The translations under genes and the position numbers were made by a program. DNA of 64,000 bases from Chloroflexales bacterium ZM16-3 (GTDB taxonomy: Bacteria > Chloroflexota > Chloroflexia > Chloroflexales > Chloroflexaceae), in assembly GCA_004138175.2 (NCBI GenBank), contig RYFE02000007.1:62001-126000 (forward strand), written 5' to 3'. Under the pieces are notes generated by a model. That model did not search any database, was not told where the DNA came from, and worked only from the letters and a program-made list of their open reading frames with translations. Numbering within the stretch: the first letter of the stretch is position 1; the number at the start of each line of letters is the position of its first letter. Below are positions 2,391-29,829 of the stretch, piece after piece.

Positions 2391-2443
2391 CCCTATCCCC
2401 CAGCCTCCGCTCCTCTTGAGGGCGCGGGGGCTGGGGGATAGGG
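2391..2443. terminator. Long inverted repeat after the metal ATPase
   Basis: Perfect 15-bp arms (2391-2405 and 2429-2443) around a 23-base loop. No T-tract follows, so it is a transcript-end hairpin of uncertain type. Confidence 0.5.
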
Positions 2444-2474
2444 CTGCGCGGCGGTACATTCCTTAGTCTTACGG

Positions 2475-2480
2475 TATAAT
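2475..2480 (+). promoter_or_regulatory. -10 element TATAAT directly before a GTG start
   Basis: A consensus -10 hexamer ends six bases before the GTG at 2487, so transcription would begin at or next to the start codon and give a leaderless mRNA. No convincing -35 is visible. Confidence 0.5.
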
Positions 2481-2486
2481 CGCGGC

Positions 2487-5024
2487 GTGGCACGCTCTAT
2501 CATCCTGATCATGTTCGCCATCGCCCTGGCGCTGCTGCTGCGTGCGGCACCGGCCATGGCGGTAGATCTCGGCGCGCCCGGCGACTCACGCTTTGTCTGG
2601 GGCTTCTACGAGGCTGAGACCGGCGAGGGTGCCACGTTTCGCTGGAGCGGCCCGAAGGCCCGCCTGCTGCTCCACGGGGTGCCGCCTGGGCCGGCCATCC
2701 TCAGCTTGCGCCTGAGCGGCGAGCGCCTGGTAGCGCAGGGTGCGCCTCGTGTGGCCCTCGCTCGCGAAAGCTCAACCTTTGCGGCCTTCGATGTCGTCCC
2801 CGGATGGCGAGTCTATCAGGTTCTGCTGCCCCCCGGCGCGCTGACGGATACGGCTGGCGTAGCCCTACCCCTCGCCCTCCAGACCGGGGTGAGCGTCCCC
2901 GGCGCTGATGACGATGGCCGCGATTACCGCGCCCTCGGCCTGCCCCTCGACTGGCTTGGCCTCGCGCCCCTTGGCGGCATGGCTGGCCCGCTTATGCGGA
3001 CGCTCTGGCTCTCATGGGCGCTGGCCCTGCTCACCTGGGCCGCCGCCCGCCTGGACTCCATCCTGCTGCCACACCGCGCCGGCCACCCGCTGCGGATCGC
3101 TACCCTGGAGGTGGTCGCCGCCGTTGGGTTGCTCGCTTGGGCCGCTCGCGATCCCTATGGCATGGCGTGGGCGATTCCGCCGCTGCCCTGGGCGCTCGGG
3201 CTAGGCACCGTGTTGCTGTTCGCCGAGCCGCTGCTGGCCGCCCGATCACGCCTGCGCCTAGACATCGACCGGCGCTGGTGGGCCGTGGCTGGATTGGCAA
3301 TCCTCGTCCTCGCCCAGGGGTTGCTGAACTCCCATCTCGCTGTTGGTGCCGGGGTCGCTCTGGTGCTCGTTGGGCTGCTCATCTTGCTGGCCGCCCCGCA
3401 GGGGCTGGGCCGAGGTCTCTGGCTGCCCCCCGCCACAACCATCCCGCGCTGCGCCGCTATGGCAATCCTTGGAGCAATCGTTCTGCTGGCGCTGGCCCTG
3501 CGCCTCTACCAAATCGACGCGCTACCCTTCGGCTTCTGGCGTGACGAGGCCCGCCACGGGCTCACCGCCCTGCATATGGCCGCCGACCCGTCCTATCGTC
3601 CGGTCTATGTCACCGATCTGCGCGTGCAGCTGCCTGGGCTTGGGCTTGCCCCCTTCGCCGTGGCCCTCCAGCTGCTCGGCGTGCATATCTGGACGATGCG
3701 GCTGGTGACGGCGGCCGCCGGGGCGCTCACCGCCCTGCCGGTCTATGCGCTGCTGAGCAGGCTGGCAACAACGGCGGAGGGAGAAGTTCCGCCTGCACGC
3801 GGACTCGGGCTCCTCGCCGCCCTATTAGTGGCGATCTCTAGCTGGCAGATCACGATTAGCCGCTTCTCTTTCCCCACGATCTTCGAGCCGTTGCTTACCT
3901 GGACTGGTCTCTGGCTCTTCGACCGCGCCCTGCGCCCCGCCGACGGTCGCGCATCGCGGCCTCTGGCAATCGCCCTGAGCGGCGGGCTGGCCGGGGTCTG
4001 CTTTGGCGTGGCCGCCCAGACCTACCATATCGGCAGGTTTGCGCCGGTGATGGGTGGGCTGCTGGCGCTGGCCGTGCTGATCGAGCGACGGGCATGGAGG
4101 CGCTGGCTACTGGCTGTGCTGCCGGCCGCCCTCGGCTGCCTGCTCGTCCTCGCCCCGCTGGTCAGCTACGCGCTGCGCCAGCCGGATGACTTTAACGTGC
4201 GGGTCGGCGCGGTCTTTGCGCTCGATGAAGGGAGCCGTCAGGGCCGGGCCCCCCTGTCCGTCCTTGACGATAGCTTGAGCCGCCACCTCCTGATGTTCAA
4301 TGTTCAGGGTGACATGAATGGGCGGCACTACGCGCCCGGTTTCCCCATGCTCGATTATGTGACTGGGCTGGTCTTCCTGCTGGGGATGGCTGCGCTGCTG
4401 CGCCGAATAGCCAACTGGCGCAGCCTGTTCCTGCTAGCAGCACTTGGCCTCGGGCTGCTGCCCAGCGTGCTGACGGTCGACTCGCCCCACGGCATGCGCG
4501 CCTTCGAGGCCGCGCCCCTGTCCTGCGCCATCGCCGCCCTCGGCCTGTTTGAGCTGCTGCGTATGCTGCGCCCCGAGGGCACACGCCAGAGTCGCCCGCT
4601 GATCTGGGGTACGTCCGTGGCCCTCGCCCTCGCCCTCGGCCTAAATACATGGCTCTACTTCGGGATGATGGTGTCAGACCCCTCTGTCTTCCAGAGTTTC
4701 TATATGGTGCAGAGCCGTATGGGGGTGTATGTACAGGATGCTCAGGCCAGCCGGGGAGCCGGGCGGATCTTCGTGCCGACAAAGATCGCCGAGAATGAGA
4801 CCTTTCGCTACCTGAGCTACGGAGTGGCGGTGGAATTGTTCGACGGTGCGACCCTGTCATCGCCGCCGCAGTCGGGCGACCGCTTTGTGCTCTCGGGGTA
4901 CGAGATCGCGGCGGAGCTTGCTGACCTGGCACCCTACCTCGGCCCTAGCCCGCTGCCCCTGGAGGTGGGGTCGGCCTTCCCCGACAACCGAGGGCCGACC
5001 TTTGTTGTGTACCAGGTGCCGTAG
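2487..5024 (+). CDS. Glycosyltransferase family 39-like membrane protein
   Basis: An 845-residue polytopic protein of the ArnT/PMT-like (GT39) type, which uses polyprenyl-phosphate sugars on the outer face of the membrane. It opens with a signal-like hydrophobic stretch (AMA at about 23-25), followed by a roughly 130-residue soluble region that looks beta-rich, then about a dozen hydrophobic segments. The first large loop carries WRDEA with Asp353-Glu354, matching the catalytic acidic pair of the family. A C-terminal soluble stretch of about 130 residues follows the last helices. The GTG start lies six bases downstream of TATAAT. It converges on the next gene, and both stops lie in a degenerate CCGTAG/CTACGG palindrome. 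Sugar and acceptor are unknown. Confidence 0.8.
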   Translation: MARSIILIMFAIALALLLRAAPAMAVDLGAPGDSRFVWGFYEAETGEGATFRWSGPKARLLLHGVPPGPAILSLRLSGERLVAQGAPRVALARESSTFAAFDVVPGWRVYQVLLPPGALTDTAGVALPLALQTGVSVPGADDDGRDYRALGLPLDWLGLAPLGGMAGPLMRTLWLSWALALLTWAAARLDSILLPHRAGHPLRIATLEVVAAVGLLAWAARDPYGMAWAIPPLPWALGLGTVLLFAEPLLAARSRLRLDIDRRWWAVAGLAILVLAQGLLNSHLAVGAGVALVLVGLLILLAAPQGLGRGLWLPPATTIPRCAAMAILGAIVLLALALRLYQIDALPFGFWRDEARHGLTALHMAADPSYRPVYVTDLRVQLPGLGLAPFAVALQLLGVHIWTMRLVTAAAGALTALPVYALLSRLATTAEGEVPPARGLGLLAALLVAISSWQITISRFSFPTIFEPLLTWTGLWLFDRALRPADGRASRPLAIALSGGLAGVCFGVAAQTYHIGRFAPVMGGLLALAVLIERRAWRRWLLAVLPAALGCLLVLAPLVSYALRQPDDFNVRVGAVFALDEGSRQGRAPLSVLDDSLSRHLLMFNVQGDMNGRHYAPGFPMLDYVTGLVFLLGMAALLRRIANWRSLFLLAALGLGLLPSVLTVDSPHGMRAFEAAPLSCAIAALGLFELLRMLRPEGTRQSRPLIWGTSVALALALGLNTWLYFGMMVSDPSVFQSFYMVQSRMGVYVQDAQASRGAGRIFVPTKIAENETFRYLSYGVAVELFDGATLSSPPQSGDRFVLSGYEIAAELADLAPYLGPSPLPLEVGSAFPDNRGPTFVVYQVP

Positions 5025-5049: not shown

Positions 5050-8000
5050 GATTGTCTGCTGTGATCCCCCCGAACTGCACGCCCACAGATCGCTGGTCGG
5101 TCTGCTGCGAGTCCTCGGCGGCGGGCACCCACGCCTCGCTGGTGATCCGCAGCAGCAGGGTTCCGCCAGGGGCGGGCGGCAGTGCGGCCGGGTCGAGGTG
5201 TACGGTGTACTCCGCCAGATCGCCCGCCACTTCCTGGCAGCCCAGATCCACCGCCGCGTCGGACACCTGCGGCCAGACCCCGTCCTCGGGCTGCGCCGAG
5301 AGGCACACCCTGGCAGGGCCGAGGTGCGCCGGCCGCTCGCCAGCGGCCAGGGTTAGGCGCAAGGTCTGCGGGGCTGCATCGGCCTGCCATGCCAGGCGCA
5401 GCAGCGCATCGCCGTTCGTCCAGGCGTAGCGGCTGCCGTCGGCGCGGGACTCGGGCCGGTAGAACCCGCCCACCTGGGCCACAAAGTCGTCGGGTGTGAG
5501 GGGTAGCCGGGCTGTGTCCAGCACGCCGGGGGTGGACGGCAGCGCCCGGTAGATCTGGAAGGGCAGCGTCAGCCGTGCGACATTGCGCGGCTTCTGGCTG
5601 GTGAGCTGCTCAAACTCGGGGATGTCGAGCGCAAAGCCACCGGCTGGATCCAGCCGGAAGCCCGGCAGGGCGAAGCTGGCCCCGCTGGCGCTCAGCAGCA
5701 GGTAGACTTCGCGGCCCTGTGACTGCCAGCGCGCCACCTCGGCGGCCAGTGCGTCGGCGTAAGCCCCGGGCTGGCTGCTCTTCACCGTGAAGGCGTCCAG
5801 GCCATAGGTGAAGCGCAGGGGCGTGGCCACCAGATCCGGTATATCGCGGGCGTCCGACCAGATCGGGGCACCGCCGCGCATCAGCAGCACATCCCGCCCC
5901 GGCGTAAACTTCGCCGCCGCCGCATCGAGCTGCCCCAGCGCCCCGGCATACTCGACGTGCCGGTAGATCGGCTGGTTGGTGACGATGAAGAATGCCAGCT
6001 GCAAAATGCAAAATGCAAAAGCCGCACTGTAAAGCGCTATGCCGAGCAACTTTGCAGTTTGCATTTTCAATTTTGCATTCTGCGCGAGCGCAGCGAGCGC
6101 GTACGCCATCCCCAGGCTCAGGGCCGGGTAGGCGATCGGCACGAAGCGGCGCAGGATGTAGATGTACGTCTGGTCGGAGGTGCCGTAGGTCTGGCGCACA
6201 AAGTAGTAGGTGCCGATGAAGGAGATCGTCAGGAAGAGCCAGGATGCTCGGCCAAAGCCGCGCCGCCACCAGAGGACGTAGCCCGCCACGCCGAGGATGA
6301 TGCCCAGGGGCGAGAGGTACCATCCCACGCGCACCATGTTCGCCAGGGGGATGGTCTCTTTGTTCTGGAGCGGCGCGGGCGCCGAGGTTAGCGTCGATGG
6401 GTCGGTCATCAGCCGCTGCCACCAGCTCATGGGCTTGAACTCGTTGTACCAGAGGATAACCGGCAGGTGGATGGGCGCGCCGATATAGCCCTGGAGCCGC
6501 AGCCAGTTGCTAGTCTGGTTCGAGAAGGGACCCTGCCAGGGGCCGCGCTCGGCGGCCAGGCGCGCGCGCTGCTCCTTGGTGGCGGCGAGATCGGGCTGAG
6601 AGAACCAGTAGGGGCCGGGCTGCATCACCACGCCGGCCATAGTGTGCGCCTCATCGGGGGTCAGGCGGCCGGAGCGCACGTCGCCCGCAACCAGGGCCGG
6701 GTCGCGGGTGAGCGGGTCGCTCCAGCCACCGCGCGTGTTGAAGAGCAGGTCGGCGTCGATGATCTGCGGGCGCACCAGGTAGGCATAGCCAGCCAGCAGC
6801 AGCACCCCGGCCATCACAAGGCGAATAAGCAGCGTGCGCCGGGCGATCAGGTACCCCTCGGCGCGATGTAGCAGGTTGCTGCGCCAGCGCAGGGCAAGCA
6901 GCCCGCCGACGGCCAGCGCTAGGGCGATGAGCTCAAGGGCCAGGCGACCGGGCCGGGCCAGGGCGCTGTGGGCCAGGTAGTCGGCGCGCAGCGTGTCGGT
7001 GAGGAAGGGCAGGCTCAGCAGCGAGATGATCGCCGAGTCCATCAGCCGGTCGTGGCCAGTGTCGAAGAGGTAAGCCCGCGCGATCAGGGCGATATGCAGG
7101 CCAGCGTGGAGCAGCATCGCGCCCATGCCGAGGGCCATCAGGGTCTGCGGGCGGCCCCAGCGTCGGCTCACCCAGCAGTAGAGCAGGTAGGCGAGCACCG
7201 GCCCGAGCAGGAAGAAGTCCAGGCGGGCCAGCGCCACCTGCCCAATCGCCACCCCCACCATAATCGCCGGTAGGAACGGGCCAACGTGCCCGCCCGCGCC
7301 CGCGCCCGGCCCGCGCCCGGCCCGCGCCCGACTCCTGACTCCCGACTCCCGACTCCCGACTCCCGACTCCCGACTCCCGACTCCCGACTCCCCGTCATCC
7401 ATCTGCATCTTCGCAAAGAAGTACAGCCCGGCCCAGATCAGAAACTGCGCCGCCGTCTCGGCGGTGGAGTAGCGGGCGAACCAGACCTGCACACCGTTGA
7501 GTGAGAGGAAGAGGAAGGCCAGCATGCCAACCCCCGGCCCGGCCAGGCGACGGCCGAGCATGCCCACGCCCCATGCCCCGAGCACCGCCAGTAGGCCGGG
7601 GGCGAACAGGCCCAGCTGCGGGCCACCGACGGCAGCCAGCAGGGCGATCCAGGCCGGCAGCAGATGCAGCCCCTGGGGGACAACCTTGCCGATATCCAGA
7701 TCGCCCTCGTAGATCAGGAAGCCCGCCGCGCGCAGCCGCGTGGCGATGTAGCGAACTCTCGGCTGGCCGATCAGGAAGTTTGAGATCGCCTGCTTGGCCG
7801 GCTCGGCCACCGTCGGGTCGGTTGACTCCGCATCGCGGCCGATCTCGGCCAGCAGCGGGTCAGTTTGCACGAGCGACCCGGTGCGGGCGATCGCCAGCCC
7901 AGTGTTCGCGTACACCCCCGCATCACGCACCCCCAGCAGCACCTGGAAGGGCTGGGCGGCCAGGAAGAGGGAGATCAGGCCGATGACGATAAACCCGAGC

Positions 8001-23495: not shown

Positions 23496-24380
23496 CTACA
23501 CCGCGCTGCTCAGAGTCGCCCGGATATCCGCCGGTGTCCCGAAATAGGGCCAGGTGGTGACAAGCACATCCACCCCCGTTTCGGCAAATGCCCGGATATT
23601 CGCGCCGGTGAGGCCGCCGGCCGCCACAAGGGTCAGCGCGGGAAACCGTGGCCGGAGCACCTGCACCGCCTGGCGAAGTTCATCCACGGGCAGCTTGTCG
23701 AACTGGATCAGATCCGCCCCGGCCTCGGCCACCGCCACCGCGTCATCGAGCCGCTCGACCTCAACGCCCAGCTTATGCTCCCGCCCGCTCTGCTTGAGCG
23801 TGCGCAGCGCCTGGCACAGGCCGTCGAGCCCGCCCAGAAATGCCCGGTGCTGAGGGAAGATCAGGATCGTCTCCGAGAGGCCCATGCGATGCGGAACCGC
23901 GCCTCCGGCCAGGATGCCCTTCACCGCCAGCGCCTTGGTGCCAGGAAAGACCTTGCGCGTCGTCGCAACAGTGACGCTCGGCTGTACCTGACGGGCGGCA
24001 TCGACCAGCTCGCGCGCGCGGGTTGCGATGCCCGAGCCATACTCTAGCAGATTGAGCGCGACCTTCCAGCCCCGGTGCAGCGCCTGCGCCGGGCCATCTG
24101 CCACCAGCACCACATCTCCCGTCTCGACTCGGCACCCGCTGCGTGTAGACATTGTCACCGTTGCGCCGCACTGTGCGAGCAGACGGCCAGCCTCCTCAGT
24201 CCCCGCGATCACCGTGGGGTGGCGCGCGGCGAAGGTGATCCGCCCCGGCGCATCGCCAATCCCCAGCGCATAGGTGGTCAGATCCAAGTAAGGCACGTCC
24301 TCACGGATCAGCCGCGCGATCTCGTCGTCGCTCAAACAGCACGGGAGCGTAGCCCCGTTTAGGGTGTGCATCAGATTCAT
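23496..24380 (-). CDS. modD: ModD, molybdenum utilisation protein (quinolinate phosphoribosyltransferase-like)
   Basis: A 294-residue homologue of nicotinate-nucleotide pyrophosphorylase found in molybdate operons. Visible family features are DLTTYALGIGDAPGRITFAA near the N-terminus (the ModD form of the NadC DxTT motif), TTRKVFPGTKALAVKGILAG in the middle (NadC TRKTxPG), and the phosphate-binding AAGGLTGANI at the C-terminal end. ModD is linked to Mo utilisation by context, and its exact reaction is not settled. It is the last gene of a minus-strand group with a modA remnant and the PadR-ModA fusion upstream. An internal ATG three codons later is possible. Confidence 0.88.
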   Translation of the reverse strand: MNLMHTLNGATLPCCLSDDEIARLIREDVPYLDLTTYALGIGDAPGRITFAARHPTVIAGTEEAGRLLAQCGATVTMSTRSGCRVETGDVVLVADGPAQALHRGWKVALNLLEYGSGIATRARELVDAARQVQPSVTVATTRKVFPGTKALAVKGILAGGAVPHRMGLSETILIFPQHRAFLGGLDGLCQALRTLKQSGREHKLGVEVERLDDAVAVAEAGADLIQFDKLPVDELRQAVQVLRPRFPALTLVAAGGLTGANIRAFAETGVDVLVTTWPYFGTPADIRATLSSAV

Positions 24381-24585: not shown

Positions 24586-24990
24586 TTACTTCGTTGACAT
24601 AAAGCCGTACTGCGCCAGGATGGCCTGAGCCTCGGGTGTCTGAAGATACGCCACAAACAGCTGGGCCAGATCGGCCTTGGCGCTGTCGTCGATCTCGGCA
24701 ACATAGAACTTCGCCATCGTGGTGAACCCCTCTGGCAGATCGATGATCTGCACCTTACCCACAGTTGTCCCGGTCACATCCGAGGCGTAGACAATGGAGG
24801 CATCGGCCTCGCCCAGCGTCACTTTGGCCAGCGCGGCGCGCACGCTCGCCTCGTATGAGACAGTGTTGGTGAGCACAGCGTCTTTATAGCCGGGGGCAAA
24901 GGTGGGGTCGCTGGCCGCCCGATCAAGCACCCCCAGCGCATACTGGCCGATGGCCGTCTCCTTATCGCCGAGCACGAGTCGATCTCCTTC
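24586..24990 (-). pseudogene. Truncated molybdate-binding protein modA (C-terminal part only)
   Basis: About 133 codons match the C-terminal two fifths of ModA (compare the intact copy at 27829-28734): RLVLGDKETAIGQYAL, TNTVSYEASVRAALAKV, GEADASIVYASD and FVAYLQTPEAQAILAQYGF. Upstream of about 24990 the similarity stops in all frames. No signal peptide, N-terminal lobe or ribosome site remains, although a GTG at 24975 would allow a 129-residue product. It lies between the PadR-ModA fusion and modD, so a full modA probably once stood here. A free C-terminal lobe cannot bind oxyanion alone. Confidence 0.75.
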
Positions 24991-25219: not shown

Positions 25220-26539
25220 CTACAATCGCCCCAGGATTGGCAGCGCGATCGGCACATACATATCGCCGTCGGCCTGACGCCCGTCGGAGGCAAAGACGAT
25301 TGCGGCGTCCGCCTCGCCGCAGGTGACGGACTCCAGCACCTCGGTGATGCTCTCGCCATAGCGCACGACGTTATGCAGCACGGCGTCCTTCCCCTGGGTT
25401 CCAAAGAAGCCCCGGCCCTCAACCTGAGCGAGAAACTCTTGCGTATACTGGCCGATCGCGGTCGCCTCCGAGCCAAGGGCCAGCCTGATCCCCGGCCGGG
25501 CCAGGTCATCGAGCCGCGTGATCCGCGCCGGGTTGCTGCGCAGCGCCACCACCGCGATCTGGTTTGAGGCGAAGGCGTACACGCTCTCGCGCCAGACCCG
25601 CCCGGCGCGCACGGCCAGATCCATCGCCTGACGATGGGCGGGCGCGAAGATATCTGCCGTTTCACCACGGCTGAGCCGTGCGGCCAGGGCGTAGGAGCCA
25701 TCAAAGACGAAGCGCACCGCCGCGCCGGGGTGCGCCGCGCAGAAGTCGGCCCCAATTGCGTGGAAGGGGCCGGTGAGCGAGGCGGCCGCAAAGACGGTCA
25801 GGGTGCGCTTGCTCGTCTTCACCGGCGCAGGCTCATCGAGCGGCGCGCTCTCAAGGAAGGCCGCGACGGTCGGGTAGAAGCCAGCGTTGAGCAGCGCCGC
25901 CTGACCCGCAGGCCCGCGCACTGCGTCCACAAAGTTGGCGGCCAGATCGGGCTGGGAGCAGTCGGCGATCATCGCGATGCTGAAGGAGACCGCGCTGGTC
26001 TCGGGCGGCGCGGCGAGCGTGCGGTCGAGCCAGGCCAGGAAGCTCTCCAGCTGGCGAATACGCAGCTGGAGGAAGAGCCCGGCGTCGGGCTGGCCTGCCC
26101 TGCCAGAGAGCTGTGCGCGTATCGCATCGCGCCATGCCCTGCCCGCTGCGCGCTGGGCCGCGAGCAGCGAGCGCACGGCGGCAGGCCCGGCGCGCTCCGC
26201 GAAGTAGAGCCGGGCCAGAAAGTCGAGCCGCAGCTGCGCCGGGTCGTCCACGGGCGTGGCGAGCCAGTTGGCAAAGGCGGCGGCACCGGCCTCTGTCACA
26301 TGCAGCACCTTGCGAGGCGGGCGGGCGCCCTGCGGCTCCAGAGTCGTCACCAGATAGCCGGCCTGCTCAAGCTTGCTCGCCAGGGCGTAGAAGTGGCTCA
26401 GCTTGAGCTGCCAGATCTTGCCCAGGGCGTCGGGGGCGATGAGCTGCTGGTAGGCCGCGTAGGCGTGCATGGGCTGCTGGCTTATGAAGCCCAGCAGGGC
26501 GTGCTCAATCGTTAGCGGCGCTTGGTGACGAGGGCTCAT
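25220..26539 (-). CDS. PadR-type DNA-binding domain fused to a circularly permuted ModA-like sensor
   Basis: 439 residues, with no signal peptide. Residues 8-85 are a PadR winged helix (APLTIEHALLGFISQQPMHA, then RPPRKVLHVTEAG) and about 95-175 its helical C-terminal domain; both align with the neighbouring PadR gene. Residues about 184-225 (SIAMIADCSQPDLAANFVDA, GPAGQAALLNAGF) match the last helices of ModA. Residues about 246-439 match ModA from its first strand (TLTVFAAASLTGPF) through ADIFAPAHRQAMDL, SNQIAVVAL, ATAIGQYTQ and CGEADAAIVFASD, then end at IALP where the C-terminal segment would start. The order is thus C-part then N-part. A cytoplasmic molybdate or tungstate sensor controlling the adjacent mod genes is the natural reading, inferred from context. 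Confidence 0.88.
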   Translation of the reverse strand: MSPRHQAPLTIEHALLGFISQQPMHAYAAYQQLIAPDALGKIWQLKLSHFYALASKLEQAGYLVTTLEPQGARPPRKVLHVTEAGAAAFANWLATPVDDPAQLRLDFLARLYFAERAGPAAVRSLLAAQRAAGRAWRDAIRAQLSGRAGQPDAGLFLQLRIRQLESFLAWLDRTLAAPPETSAVSFSIAMIADCSQPDLAANFVDAVRGPAGQAALLNAGFYPTVAAFLESAPLDEPAPVKTSKRTLTVFAAASLTGPFHAIGADFCAAHPGAAVRFVFDGSYALAARLSRGETADIFAPAHRQAMDLAVRAGRVWRESVYAFASNQIAVVALRSNPARITRLDDLARPGIRLALGSEATAIGQYTQEFLAQVEGRGFFGTQGKDAVLHNVVRYGESITEVLESVTCGEADAAIVFASDGRQADGDMYVPIALPILGRL

Positions 26540-26592: not shown

Positions 26593-26669
26593 GGAGTCAG
26601 GGTTCGCGCATCACCGTGCCATACGCGACACCAAACGGTAAAGCAACCTGAAACCTTGTCGAAGCGCAC

Positions 26670-26697
26670 ATACTAATTTATTGAGCGAGATTATCAA
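26670..26697 (-). promoter_or_regulatory. Putative promoter of the PadR-ModA fusion
   Basis: On the minus strand TTGATA (26697-26692), 16 bases, TAGTAT (26675-26670). The spacer contains, on the plus strand, TTGAGCGA (26681-26688), the motif also seen at the other mod promoters. Confidence 0.5.
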
Positions 26698-26726: not shown

Positions 26727-26922
26727 GGCAGCGCGATCAGGGCATGTGCAAAATCCATGGCCCCCCGGCTGGCGACTGGAAGTCGCGCCAACGGGGCGCT
26801 GCGCGCCGGGCGTCGGCCTGCGCCGACGCTGGAACCGCCCACGAAGGTGGGCGGTCGGCCGCAGGCCCCGTTGGTGCGAGTTTACTCGCCCGCTGACTTT
26901 GCACATGCCCTGGCAGCGCAAT
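26727..26922. mobile_element. MITE-like element, GGGCATGTGC terminal-repeat family
   Basis: The element (about 26738-26912) starts CAGGGCATGTGCAAA and ends with the exact complement. The interior is stacked GC-rich hairpins. Flanking GGCAGCGCGAT and GGCAGCGCAAT (10 of 11 identical) look like a target duplication. No transposase is encoded. It lies in the divergent promoter region, its right edge touching the padR -35. Confidence 0.7.
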
Positions 26923-27016: not shown

Positions 27017-27571
27017 ATGCCCATGGTCAAGGCGCCCCTCACAATCGAGTACGGGCTGCTCGGCTTTGTGCGCCAGCAGCCGCTCCACGGCTACGAGATC
27101 GCCCAGCGCCTGCGCGCCACCGAGGAGCTAGGGCTGTCCTGGGGCTGGAAGCAGAGCCAGGTCTACGCCGAGCTGATGCGCCTAGAGCAGGATGGCTACC
27201 TCACCAGCGAGGTTGAGGTCCAGGGGACGCGACCGCCACGCAAGGTCTTTCGGCTGACCGCGACGGGGGATGCGGCCTTTGATACCTGGATCGCCAGCCC
27301 GGTGCCCCACGGGCGCGACTTTCAGCTGGAGTTCCCGGCCAAGCTCTACTTTGCGCAGCAGGAAGGCAGCGCCGCCGCCCGGACGCTGATCGCCCGCCAG
27401 CAGGAGGCGTGCCAGAGCTGGCTGGTCGGCATGCGCGCCCAGGATCAGCCGCACGAGGCGGATCAGGATTACGCCCATCTGGTGCAGCAGTTCCGCATCA
27501 GCCAGATCGAAACTATCCTCGCCTGGCTCGCCACCTGCGCCAATCAGCTTCGTGGAGAGGGTGATGCGTGA
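27017..27571 (+). CDS. PadR-family transcriptional regulator
   Basis: A 184-residue cytoplasmic regulator. A winged-helix domain (about 6-90; APLTIEYGLLGFVRQQPLHG, RPPRKVFRLTATGDAAFDTW) is followed by the helical Vir_act_alpha_C-type dimerisation domain. It is a close paralogue of the DNA-binding half of the PadR-ModA fusion, from which it is divergently transcribed. It has no ligand-binding module of its own, so the two may form heterodimers or compete for the same sites; that is inference. ATG 27017 fits the PadR alignment. Its TGA stop lies in a palindrome of ATCACGC-type heptamers shared with the mop end. Confidence 0.87.
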   Translation: MPMVKAPLTIEYGLLGFVRQQPLHGYEIAQRLRATEELGLSWGWKQSQVYAELMRLEQDGYLTSEVEVQGTRPPRKVFRLTATGDAAFDTWIASPVPHGRDFQLEFPAKLYFAQQEGSAAARTLIARQQEACQSWLVGMRAQDQPHEADQDYAHLVQQFRISQIETILAWLATCANQLRGEGDA

Positions 27572-27599: not shown

Positions 27600-27812
27600 C
27601 TACTCCTCAGTGGCGATCAGCACCTCGGTCGACTTGATGATCGCCCGCACCTTGTCGCCAACCTTCAGGCCGAGGCCGTGAACCGACTCGACCGTGATCA
27701 CCGACACGATCTCCTCGCCGCCATTCAGCTTCACCACCACCTCGGCGGTGACCACGCCCTCTTTGATCGACTGAATCATCCCCGCCAGCTGGTTTCGTGC
27801 GCTTAGACGCAT
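27600..27812 (-). CDS. mop: Molbindin, single-Mop-domain molybdate-binding protein
   Basis: A 70-residue protein of exactly one Mop/TOBE unit: MRLSARNQLAGMIQSIKEGV, then VNV-type strand AEVVVKLNGGEEIVSVIT and the GLKVGDKVRAIIKSTEVLI end. Single-Mop proteins form hexamers that bind molybdate or tungstate in the cytoplasm, giving storage or homeostasis. GGAGG precedes ATG 27812 by about seven bases. It lies 16 bases after modA, so the two are probably co-transcribed. Confidence 0.93.
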   Translation of the reverse strand: MRLSARNQLAGMIQSIKEGVVTAEVVVKLNGGEEIVSVITVESVHGLGLKVGDKVRAIIKSTEVLIATEE

Positions 27813-27828
27813 TGCGATCCTCCTTGCT

Positions 27829-28734
27829 TCAATTACTGCTTGTGACCGGGATAAAGCCATATTGTGCCAACATCTGCTGGCCCTCGGGGCTGAGCACATA
27901 GTCGACAAATGCCTGGGCCAGCTCGGGCGCGGCGCTGTCGGCGACCGGCGCGATCGGGTAGGTGGCGATCGTGTTGATCTCTTCGGGGATGGCGATCAGC
28001 TTGAGCTTGTCGGATTCGAGCGCGGCGTCGGTGGTGTAGACGATCCCCGCGTCGCCTTCTCCCAGGGACACCTTGGTCAGCACCACGCGCACATTATTCT
28101 CATAGGAGACAACATTAGACAGCACGGTCGAGCTGTATGTCTCGGTGTACTCCGGCAGCGCGCTGGCCTTGGCCAGAAAGTCGAGGGCGTACTGGCCCAC
28201 TGGCACGGCCTTATCGGCCAGGATCAGCTTGAGGCCGGGCTTTGTGAGATCCTGGAGCGTGGTGATGTCGGCGGGGTTATTGCCGGGGGTGATCACCACC
28301 AGCTGGTTGCGCACAAAGGTCTGCTCGCTGCCGCCCGTCACCCGCGCGCTGGCGATGGCCGCATCCATCTGCTTGCGGTTGGCCGAGGCGAACACGTCAG
28401 CCGGGGCGCCCTCGCCAAGCTGGGTTGCGAGCTGCTGCGAGCCTGCGAAGTTGTAGACGACCGTCACGCCGGGGTGGGCGGCCTCGAAGCCGGGAGCGAG
28501 CGCCTTGAAGGCGTCGGTCAGCGAGGCGGCGGCGAAGACGTTCAGCGTCATTTCGACCACAGGAGCGGGGGTGGCGGTGGGCTCAGTGGCAGGCGGGGCA
28601 TCTGTCGGCGCGGTGGTTTCGGCGGCGGGCGGGGCATCTGTCGCGGCGGGCGGCTGGGCGGCGGGCGCGCCGCCACAGGCGGCGAGCAGCAGCGTGAGCA
28701 GGAGCATGAGCGGGACAATCGGCGAGCGTTTCAT
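27829..28734 (-). CDS. modA: Molybdate/tungstate ABC transporter substrate-binding lipoprotein ModA
   Basis: 301 residues. A signal peptide ends in the lipobox LAAC with Cys20, so the protein is lipid-anchored outside the membrane. A Pro/Ala/Thr-rich linker (about 21-60) precedes the two-lobe binding domain: MTLNVFAAASLTDAFKALAP with the oxyanion-binding Ser, GAPADVFASANRKQM, ADKAVPVGQYALDFL and GEGDAGIVYTTDA. GGAGG lies six bases before ATG 28734. It is followed by mop and preceded by modB, with its own strong promoter between. It is the intact reference for the truncated copy and for the permuted domain nearby. Confidence 0.93.
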   Translation of the reverse strand: MKRSPIVPLMLLLTLLLAACGGAPAAQPPAATDAPPAAETTAPTDAPPATEPTATPAPVVEMTLNVFAAASLTDAFKALAPGFEAAHPGVTVVYNFAGSQQLATQLGEGAPADVFASANRKQMDAAIASARVTGGSEQTFVRNQLVVITPGNNPADITTLQDLTKPGLKLILADKAVPVGQYALDFLAKASALPEYTETYSSTVLSNVVSYENNVRVVLTKVSLGEGDAGIVYTTDAALESDKLKLIAIPEEINTIATYPIAPVADSAAPELAQAFVDYVLSPEGQQMLAQYGFIPVTSSN

Positions 28735-28899
28735 GAAAACCTCCAGCGACAAAAGATAAAGCCAGCCACGCTCACGCCCGTTGCCAACACGGGTGTGTTG
28801 GGCGGGGCGGCGCGGTACGTAGGGTCGTCACGCGGAATGGCAGCAGTGGCAGCAGCATCATTGCCGAGGAGGGTCAGGACAGTTAGGTCAATATGTAAG

Positions 28900-28916
28900 T
28901 ACTCAAAGAATGAGTA
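28900..28916 (-). promoter_or_regulatory. Inverted repeat at the modA transcription start
   Basis: TACTCA, five bases, TGAGTA immediately downstream of the modA -10, in the position of a repressor operator. On the minus strand it reads CTTTGAGTA, similar to the TTGAGCGA boxes at the PadR promoters. Confidence 0.45.
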
Positions 28917-28917
28917 T

Positions 28918-28946
28918 AGTATGACATTCCTTCAGCATCCTGTCAA
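28918..28946 (-). promoter_or_regulatory. Promoter of modA-mop
   Basis: On the minus strand TTGACA (28946-28941), 17 bases, CATACT (28923-28918): the same two hexamers and spacing as the padR promoter. Confidence 0.65.
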
Positions 28947-29791
28947 CTAGACGATGGTGCATCGACGCGCTGCCGCAGGATCGCCTTAACAAGCCACAGC
29001 ACGAAGAAGGAGACAGCGAGCAAGATCAGCGCCATGGTCAGCGCCAGATCCAGGTCAACCTCAAAGCCGAGGTAGATCGCCAGCGGCATTGTCTGCGTGC
29101 GCCCGGGGAAATTGCCCGCGAAGATGATGGTGGCGCCGAACTCGCCAAGGGCGCGCGCCCAGCTCATCACCAGCCCGCCCAGGAGCACCGGCCAGGCTAG
29201 TGGCAGGGTGATCCAGGCGAACACCTGATGCGGCGACGCGCCATCGATCTCAGCGGCCTGCTCGATCTCGCGATCCACGCCAGCGAATCCGGCCACCGCA
29301 GTTTTGATGTAGAACGGCGCGGATACGAAGGTCTGCGCCAGCACCACCGCCATGGTTGTGAAGGCGAGGGTGACTCCCGCCTCGTTCAGCCAGGTGCCGA
29401 CCATGCCTCGCCGCCCGAAGGCGATCAGCAGAGCGATACCGGCGACCGATGGGGGCAGCACCATCGGCAGTTCGACCAGGGTGTCGAGCAGGCTGCGCCC
29501 GCGAAAGTGCCGCCGGGCCAGCAGGTAGGCCAGCGGCGTGCCAAGCACCAGCCCCAGCGCCGTGCTGCACGCAGTCGTCGTGATGCTTAGCCCAATCGCC
29601 TGTCCAACCTCTGGACTGGTGATGTTGGCCATGAGCGCGGCTGGATCGACGCGGGTGATCATGGCCAGGATGGGCAGCAACAGGAAGGCGAGCATCGGCA
29701 GGCTGACCAGCAGTAGTCCGAGGTGCGGGATCGCCCGTGGTCGCCAGGGCCGCCGAATCGCTGTCCGCAGAGAGGTCGTGGTGTATTCCAT
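28943..29791 (-). CDS. modB: Molybdate ABC transporter permease ModB
   Basis: A 282-residue inner-membrane permease with about six transmembrane helices, forming the molybdate/tungstate channel. The cytoplasmic EAA loop that contacts the ATPase is clear: EQAAEIDGASPHQVFAWITL. The ending SWARALGEFGATIIFAGN is typical of ModB/CysT. A strong promoter lies upstream at 29830-29858. No modC ATPase gene follows; modA and mop come next, so the ATP-hydrolysing subunit must be encoded elsewhere or shared. Confidence 0.93.
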   Translation of the reverse strand: MEYTTTSLRTAIRRPWRPRAIPHLGLLLVSLPMLAFLLLPILAMITRVDPAALMANITSPEVGQAIGLSITTTACSTALGLVLGTPLAYLLARRHFRGRSLLDTLVELPMVLPPSVAGIALLIAFGRRGMVGTWLNEAGVTLAFTTMAVVLAQTFVSAPFYIKTAVAGFAGVDREIEQAAEIDGASPHQVFAWITLPLAWPVLLGGLVMSWARALGEFGATIIFAGNFPGRTQTMPLAIYLGFEVDLDLALTMALILLAVSFFVLWLVKAILRQRVDAPSSS

Positions 29792-29829
29792 ATACCCCGC
29801 CTAGTCATTCAATAAATATCTATGTTCGG

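Follow-up and report, generated by a model that had tools for sequence, protein, structure and literature searches.

In the window (the whole stretch of 64,000 nucleotides that was analysed), one gene joins a PadR-type DNA-binding part to a ModA-like part whose segments stand in swapped order, and its product is likely to act in the cytoplasm as a one-component regulator of the uptake of molybdate (or tungstate). The architecture, its conservation, the clade that it forms, the selection acting on it, the fold of the model, the gene context and the association of a palindrome with mod promoters are shown; the ligand, the dimer, the binding to DNA and the sign of control are inferred. The coordinates 25220-26539, proposed from sequence alone in the original prediction, held, and the gene lies on the minus strand, which carries an open frame of 439 aa, whereas the plus strand has internal stops. 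The gene and its parts are the following:

25220..26539, minus strand: PadR-permuted ModA fusion gene (439 aa, stop included)
26255..26539, minus strand: PadR winged helix, residues 1-95 (Pfam PadR 15-90; AlphaFold2)
26000..26254, minus strand: PadR C-terminal (dimer-type) helices, residues 96-180 (Vir_act_alpha_C 104-177; AlphaFold2 helices)
25874..25990, minus strand: displaced ModA C-terminal segment (strand-helix-helix), residues 184-222 (MODAC HMM; AlphaFold2 and deletion control)
25808..25873, minus strand: linker from the old ModA C-terminus to the old N-terminus, residues 223-244 (pLDDT <50 at 227-236; dN/dS 0.44-1.37)
25223..25807, minus strand: ModA N-terminal segment through lobe 2, residues 245-439 (Pfam, HMMs, match to 6nio), stopping where the C-terminal segment would start

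Domain order and predicted fold

The fusion is thus laid out as PadR (1-180), the ModA C-terminal strand-helix-helix (184-222), a linker (223-244) and the remaining ModA (245-439). In Pfam, PadR (PF03551) is matched at residues 15-90 with 37.3 bits (curated cut-off 27) and Vir_act_alpha_C at residues 104-177 with 27.7 bits (cut-off 22.4), from which a dimer is inferred. SBP_bac_11 is matched at residues 247-424, which correspond to positions 1-173 of its 227, and TIGR01256 (ModA) reaches 70.7 bits against a cut-off of 62.5 over profile positions 1-167 of 217. The missing end of SBP_bac_11 (profile 179-226) is found in the same open frame ahead of the first piece, with 23.1 bits, slightly below the cut-off of 25. 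The co-linear order of ModA-type proteins, in which the C-terminal segment comes last, is therefore not met by the fusion, where this segment precedes the N-terminal part. Two HMMs trained solely on ordinary, non-permuted ModAs give the same result: MODAC is placed at 197-235 (E 1.9e-9) and MODAN at 259-445 (E 1.2e-50), in the numbering of the 451-aa stop-to-stop frame. The window gene shows the order PADR-MODAC-MODAN, as do all intact fused frames of the homologous loci examined with the HMMs, and no fused frame with a normal-order ModA was met among the homologous loci scanned with them. The chain ends in 'IALPILGRL', the point at which an ordinary ModA runs on into its C-terminal segment. 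Two structural claims of the original prediction have therefore held: that a PadR winged helix and its helical domain are joined to a ModA module in swapped order (Pfam and the HMMs from ordinary ModAs), and that the chain ends at IALP, where the ModA C-terminal segment would begin (alignment to ordinary ModA). Its further claim of a cytoplasmic sensor without signal peptide rests on inference: the PadR domain starts near residue 10-15, so that no export signal is expected, and no signal predictor was used.

The AlphaFold2 model of the fusion has a mean pLDDT of 88.4 and a pTM of 0.70, and it was built on an alignment of 57 rows, six of which span the junction while the others are separate PadR or ModA-N pieces. 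Its helices 100-117, 119-146 and 151-176 form the C-terminal part of PadR, and pLDDT falls below 50 at linker residues 227-236. The front part of the protein matches PadR structures (8jxk, Z 15.6), and residues 245-437 match ModA structures except for the last 42 or so residues of these (6nio, Z 16.8, rmsd 2.5, 182 aligned; 1wod, Z 16.4, chain 3-189 of 231). LysR-type regulatory domains also appear among the structure matches. One of the 50 structure rows, the phosphate-binding protein 4h1x, spans residues 179-329, that is, the displaced segment and the start of ModA-N (Z 13.9, rmsd 2.8, 131 aligned).

As the matches to ModA structures cover residues 245-437 only, folding of a deletion was chosen as the control for the displaced segment. 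With ModA-N present, this segment is modelled as a strand (184-191) followed by helices 197-208 and 210-218, with ten-residue block means of pLDDT, counted from residue 181, of 80, 95, 94 and 90. Without ModA-N the means drop to 55, 72, 78 and 73 and the strand turns into helix, which indicates, at the level of the model, that confidence in the displaced segment depends on the rest of ModA. It must be noted that the control used 28 alignment rows instead of 57 (each with six over the displaced segment) and that the nearby chain end alone may lower pLDDT. The expectation that residues 184-225 pack as the ModA C-terminal helices is hence met only as a prediction, by a strand-helix-helix at 184-218 that depends on ModA-N. 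A domain-swapped dimer remains possible.

Distribution, relatives and selection

In a set of 61 genomes, the fusion is present in 11 of the 37 from the family of the window's own genome, whereas the 24 that represent other families of the order all lack it. The bacteria that carry it are a group of green filamentous ones. The gene is a single open frame in nine of these 11 genomes, although that of G002 ends early by a few residues; in G005 it is split over two contig ends and in G014 over two frames. Identity to the window protein ranges from 93% (G004) down to about 40% (39%), and these homologues with the same order of parts contradict the possibility, raised as a refutation in the original prediction, of a chance join without relatives. 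Among 400 Chloroflexota genomes drawn evenly, at least five have a full-length fused match (G000, G001, G002, G004 and G018). A scan of named genomes returned at least 486 relatives, and the best 80 of these include five intact fusions and a broken one, the intact ones all coming from records titled Oscillochloris, Chloroflexaceae or Chloroflexales.

Some candidates were discarded. G037, which matched residues 1-421 and came up as a sixth full-length match among the 400 Chloroflexota genomes, has two genes with a stop between them, and the normal-order PadR-ModA fusions suspected from frame lengths in G035, G046 and G048 proved to be separate genes once the reading frames were inspected.

Both domains were placed in trees that are midpoint-rooted only. 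In the ModA-N tree (87 rows), ten fusions and a remnant at locus L105 form one group with support of 100/99; in the PadR tree (58 rows), nine fusions group with the broken copy of locus L067 with weaker support (85/73). The L105 remnant (5998-6462) is a 177-aa frame without PadR or C-segment, located ahead of an intact modA and with a palindrome at 5929-5949; it probably belongs to the genome G006. The L067 copy (2418-3171) is a second fused copy, broken and rearranged, in the genome G033.

Selection was estimated on 8 of the 36 possible pairs of fusions. The dN/dS values are 0.10-0.25 for the winged helix, 0.06-0.55 for the PadR helices, 0.09-0.25 for ModA-N and 0.18-0.66 for the displaced ModA-C segment (noisy, with only 39 codons), and 0.44-1.37 for the linker. 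Both ModA pieces are under purifying selection and the linker hardly so. Two constrained pieces with a nearly free tether make the pattern expected of a permuted domain, and it may be inferred from these values that the protein works.

Gene context and the operator-like palindrome

The surroundings of the fusion in the window, together with the palindromic sites discussed below (to which no strand is assigned), are as follows:

23496..24380, minus strand: modD (TIGR01334 over cut-off)
24586..24975, minus strand: 3' remnant of an ordinary modA, downstream of the fusion (SBP_bac_11 profile 110-226 only)
26669..26689: palindrome just past the fusion promoter's -10, weak in this genome (12.2 bits with a matrix to which the site itself contributed; leave-out 2.2 bits, rank 8)
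27017..27571, plus strand: stand-alone PadR paralogue, 184 aa, divergent from the fusion (PadR match; 48% identical over 3-172)
27600..27815, minus strand: mop, molybdenum-pterin binding domain (TIGR00638 over cut-off)
27829..28734, minus strand: modA in ordinary order, lipoprotein-type start read by eye (TIGR01256 over cut-off)
28898..28918: palindrome in the modA promoter (leave-out rank 1 in 64 kb, 22.2 bits; exact core once in the genome)
28943..29791, minus strand: modB permease (TIGR02141 over cut-off)
29800..29820: palindrome in the modB promoter (leave-out rank 2, 11.3 bits)

The neighbours named in the original prediction (a modA at 27829-28734 in normal order, mop, modB, modD and a second PadR gene) were all confirmed by profile matches. 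The stand-alone padR is situated between the fusion and modA. For modC, no match over the cut-off was obtained in the whole genome, and the only row listed within the locus on this contig is mop; Rfam gave no match at the gathering level in window positions 15000-40000. Between the fusion and the stand-alone padR, at 26735-26920, there is a hairpin-forming element of 186 bp (DNA fold z -8.8); counting this copy, the genome has at least 45 matches to it, with 40 of 172 candidates scored. It is regarded as a MITE-like repeat, and it contains a moderate palindrome site at 26881. Another decayed modA, differing from the remnant listed above, is seen downstream of another fusion (L059, 5232-5348), where a frame keeps the ModA C-terminal segment without a ModA-N match.

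Genes for molybdenum are found beside the fusion at most of the loci examined. The fusion comes first in G020 and G028, ahead of an intact modA, modB and modD; mop adjoins it in G018 and G014, and modD in G001; a stand-alone PadR and modA are near it in G002, G004 and G033. Only a stand-alone PadR was seen within the 19 kb examined around the fusion of G015, and in G005 the gene is located at contig ends. Most related loci have padR and modA as a pair of separate genes; in 30 of 80 (a hand count at loci chosen by similarity to the query), padR immediately precedes modA on its strand. The fusion occupies the position of padR in such pairs, for instance as first gene before modA in G020 and G028. 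At locus L112 (5414-7670), padR is followed by two tandem modA genes, and tandems of this type could be the kind of intermediate needed for a permutation by loss of the outer parts.

A palindrome of the type TACTCA-N5-TGAGTA precedes many of the padR-modA and fusion loci. Palindromic expectation maximisation (EM) on 59 promoters led to the 21-mer nATACTCAnTnAnTGAGTATn with a score of 346.7, against 33.8-40.1 in ten shuffled sets; other widths gave 158.2 (20) and 166.9 (22). The promoters are those of padR and fusion genes together with the modA and modB of the window, so that the window's own promoters are included and some divergent regions were read twice. The shuffled sets are first-order Markov resamplings run with 60 starts and 12 rounds, and the real set had reached 346.7 already with 40 starts and 12 rounds. 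A leave-out matrix was derived from 34 promoters that do not come from the fusion family; one of them, L064, belongs to the same order. With this matrix, the modA and modB promoters of the window hold the two best sites, the site at 26881, upstream of the stand-alone padR and inside the repeat, ranks 3 with 7.1 bits (3.4 bits with the full matrix), and the top three sites in 18 kb of G004 are those of modA, modB and the fusion (assigned by position).

A single exact copy of the core TAYTCA-N5-TGARTA is present in the 6.27-Mb genome, in the modA promoter of the window, and none of the reversed control; across the 61 genomes the core was counted 59 times, against 9 for the control (hand-summed). 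At least 17 of the 59 lie within 1.5 kb of one of 80 padR, modA or fusion matches, where 0.05 would be expected. The figure of 17 is a lower bound; the other 42 are not near these 80 matches. The fusions of G020 and G028 have strong palindromes ahead of them, and no good one was found in the fusion promoters of G015, G002 and G018 (-10.4, -3.1 and 6.2 bits). Pairs of padR and modA without any fusion carry the palindrome as well. In several fusion promoters it stands, by eye, just after the -10, a position that would fit repression. The association of the palindrome with mod promoters is shown, and its binding by PadR or the fusion is inferred, there being no data on DNA binding.

Sensor pocket, proposed mechanism and rival readings

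The ligand residues of ModA are Ser12, Ser39, Ala125, Val152 and Tyr170 (PMC8895017, table). They were compared between 76 ordinary ModA rows and 11 permuted rows, the latter comprising ten fusions plus the remnant at L105. In the permuted rows, Ser12 is S in eight, T in two and a gap in one (the remnant), Ser39 is S in 11/11, position 125 is I or V and position 152 is V, I or P. Two residues invariant in all 76 ordinary ModAs are changed: Pro124 is Ala in ten permuted rows and Gly in one, and Tyr170 is Phe in nine and remains Tyr in two. Because Pro124 and mostly Tyr170 are replaced and the serine ligands are kept, the oxyanion pocket is inferred from its residues to be retained but retuned; without binding data, altered or lost binding is not excluded. 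These signature substitutions, and the membership of the gene in the wider set of padR-modA pairs, had been missed by the original prediction, whose reading as a one-component molybdate/tungstate regulator is otherwise supported, with ligand and DNA binding inferred.

Regarding known systems, the parts of the fusion are of known kinds. ModE has a LysR-like winged helix and TOBE domains. Both proteins would be one-component molybdate regulators of mod genes, a role that is known for ModE and inferred for the fusion, but head and sensor are unrelated, the fusion being PadR plus permuted ModA. The fusion protein has no TIGR00637 (ModE) match and no Mop/TOBE match up to E = 1, mop being a separate gene. 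That the regulator replaces ModE, as had been proposed, is consistent with the data, since no TIGR00637 match over the cut-off was obtained in the 61 genomes and the palindrome ties padR and the fusion to mod promoters. This cut-off is a strict one that just 2 of 14 control genomes pass, and partial ModE-like frames with 66-77 bits were seen in six of the 61 genomes, the fusion-bearing G018 among them; the window's genome reaches only 22.5 bits.

The winged helix and C-terminal helices are common to the PadR family (5x11, 8ioi, 8jxk), to which the fusion adds a separate sensor of about 255 residues. Titles of PadR/VanR structures list p-coumaric acid and vanillate as ligands, and the ligands of these proteins sit within the PadR fold. 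The fold and most pocket residues are shared with ModA (1wod, 6nio; TIGR01256), from which the fusion differs in the swapped segments, the DNA-binding head, the absence of a visible signal peptide and the replacement of Pro124 and usually Tyr170. LysR-type regulators and HTH + PBP_like (PF12727) proteins are cytoplasmic and combine a DNA-binding head with a type II binding-protein sensor; their head differs from PadR, and they are not known to have a circularly permuted sensor. The Chloroflexota padR-modA pairs have the PadR type, the palindrome and the gene neighbours in common with the fusion, but they consist of separate genes with a normal-order ModA. Engineered switches, in which a binding domain is coupled to an output domain (PMC6335823, PMC6079105; the former mentions circular permutation 13 times), are laboratory constructs, whereas the fusion is natural. 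The open-access PMC literature that was searched (subscription papers and preprints being outside its scope) gave no description of a fusion of PadR and ModA, of a PadR-type molybdate regulator or of a ModA permuted in nature, nor of the combination, the permutation in a regulator or the palindrome.

In the proposed mechanism, the PadR winged helices, paired as a dimer, would recognise operators of the TACTCA-N5-TGAGTA type in the promoters of modA, modB and the fusion gene itself. PadR would be attached to the ModA crossover strand and not to the old N-terminus, the flexible linker tying the old termini together; the strand of entry is taken to be the one by which the ModA chain, leaving lobe 2, returns to lobe 1. 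Closure of the two lobes upon oxyanion binding may then exert a direct pull on the dimer helices of PadR, which would shift the PadR head and alter its affinity for the operator. The simplest outcome would be a molybdenum-dependent repression of uptake.

Other readings have been considered. It is unlikely that the permuted domain has ceased to sense molybdate/tungstate and senses another small oxyanion instead, or acts as a scaffold only. In favour of it are the change of Pro124 in 11/11 permuted rows and of Tyr170 to Phe in 9/11, each being invariant in 76/76 ordinary ModAs; against it, both serine ligands are S or T (apart from the gap at Ser12 in the L105 remnant), the dN/dS of ModA-N is 0.09-0.25 and molybdenum genes are beside the fusion at most loci examined. 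It is equally improbable that the palindrome is read by the stand-alone PadR and that the fusion controls something else or only itself. The position of that gene between the fusion and modA would favour this, as would the palindromes at pairs without fusion and the site at 26881, on the side of the stand-alone padR, which outscores the window's fusion-promoter site with the leave-out matrix (7.1 against 2.2 bits). Against it stand G020 and G028, whose fusions have strong palindromes ahead of them and whose examined stretches (14 kb and 6.9 kb) showed no stand-alone padR.

A protein that stores or hands on molybdate, with an incidental PadR part, might be suggested by the neighbours mop and modD, but the dN/dS of the winged helix (0.10-0.25) and the palindrome beside the gene in several genomes suggest a role in DNA binding and make this very unlikely. 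Finally, a chance join, an assembly error or a decaying gene would agree with the broken or partial copies (G014 in two frames, L067 and the L105 remnant), and yet it can be practically ruled out by the single open frame in nine genomes, at 93 to about 40% identity, and by the purifying selection.

The preferred reading, a regulator of molybdate uptake, admits a bolder version, which is put forward with reserve and is judged a little harder to accept than to doubt. According to it, a tandem of modA genes beside padR would have lost its outer pieces, leaving the head on the hinge crossover of ModA, one connection between the lobes cut and the pocket (Pro124, Tyr170) retuned for the higher molybdate concentration inside the cell, and the fusion would represent one arm of a molybdate regulon that works without ModE and has an operator of its own. 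As a regulator, the fusion would be a natural counterpart to engineered biosensors made from permuted binding proteins and a direct case of an uptake protein turned regulator. It also points to a Chloroflexota molybdate regulon not described in the literature searched, made up of PadR genes beside modA and the 21-bp palindrome, and offers a testable answer to how molybdate uptake is controlled in bacteria without a recognisable ModE.

Some minor observations concern the wider set of loci. The ModA of two Herpetosiphonaceae-type genomes (L043 and L057; G040 and G053) has an extra C-terminal stretch of roughly 110-120 residues. Pairs of padR and modA with a similar palindrome (L065 and L074) are also present in Roseithermus (Rhodothermota) and in a MAG labelled as Bacteroidetes, and it is possible that the pair has crossed phyla. 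Besides, an identical palindrome sequence is found in two genomes of one genus (G019:C204:20725 and G029:C29:89239), away from the padR/modA matches used, which could mark an extra member of the regulon.
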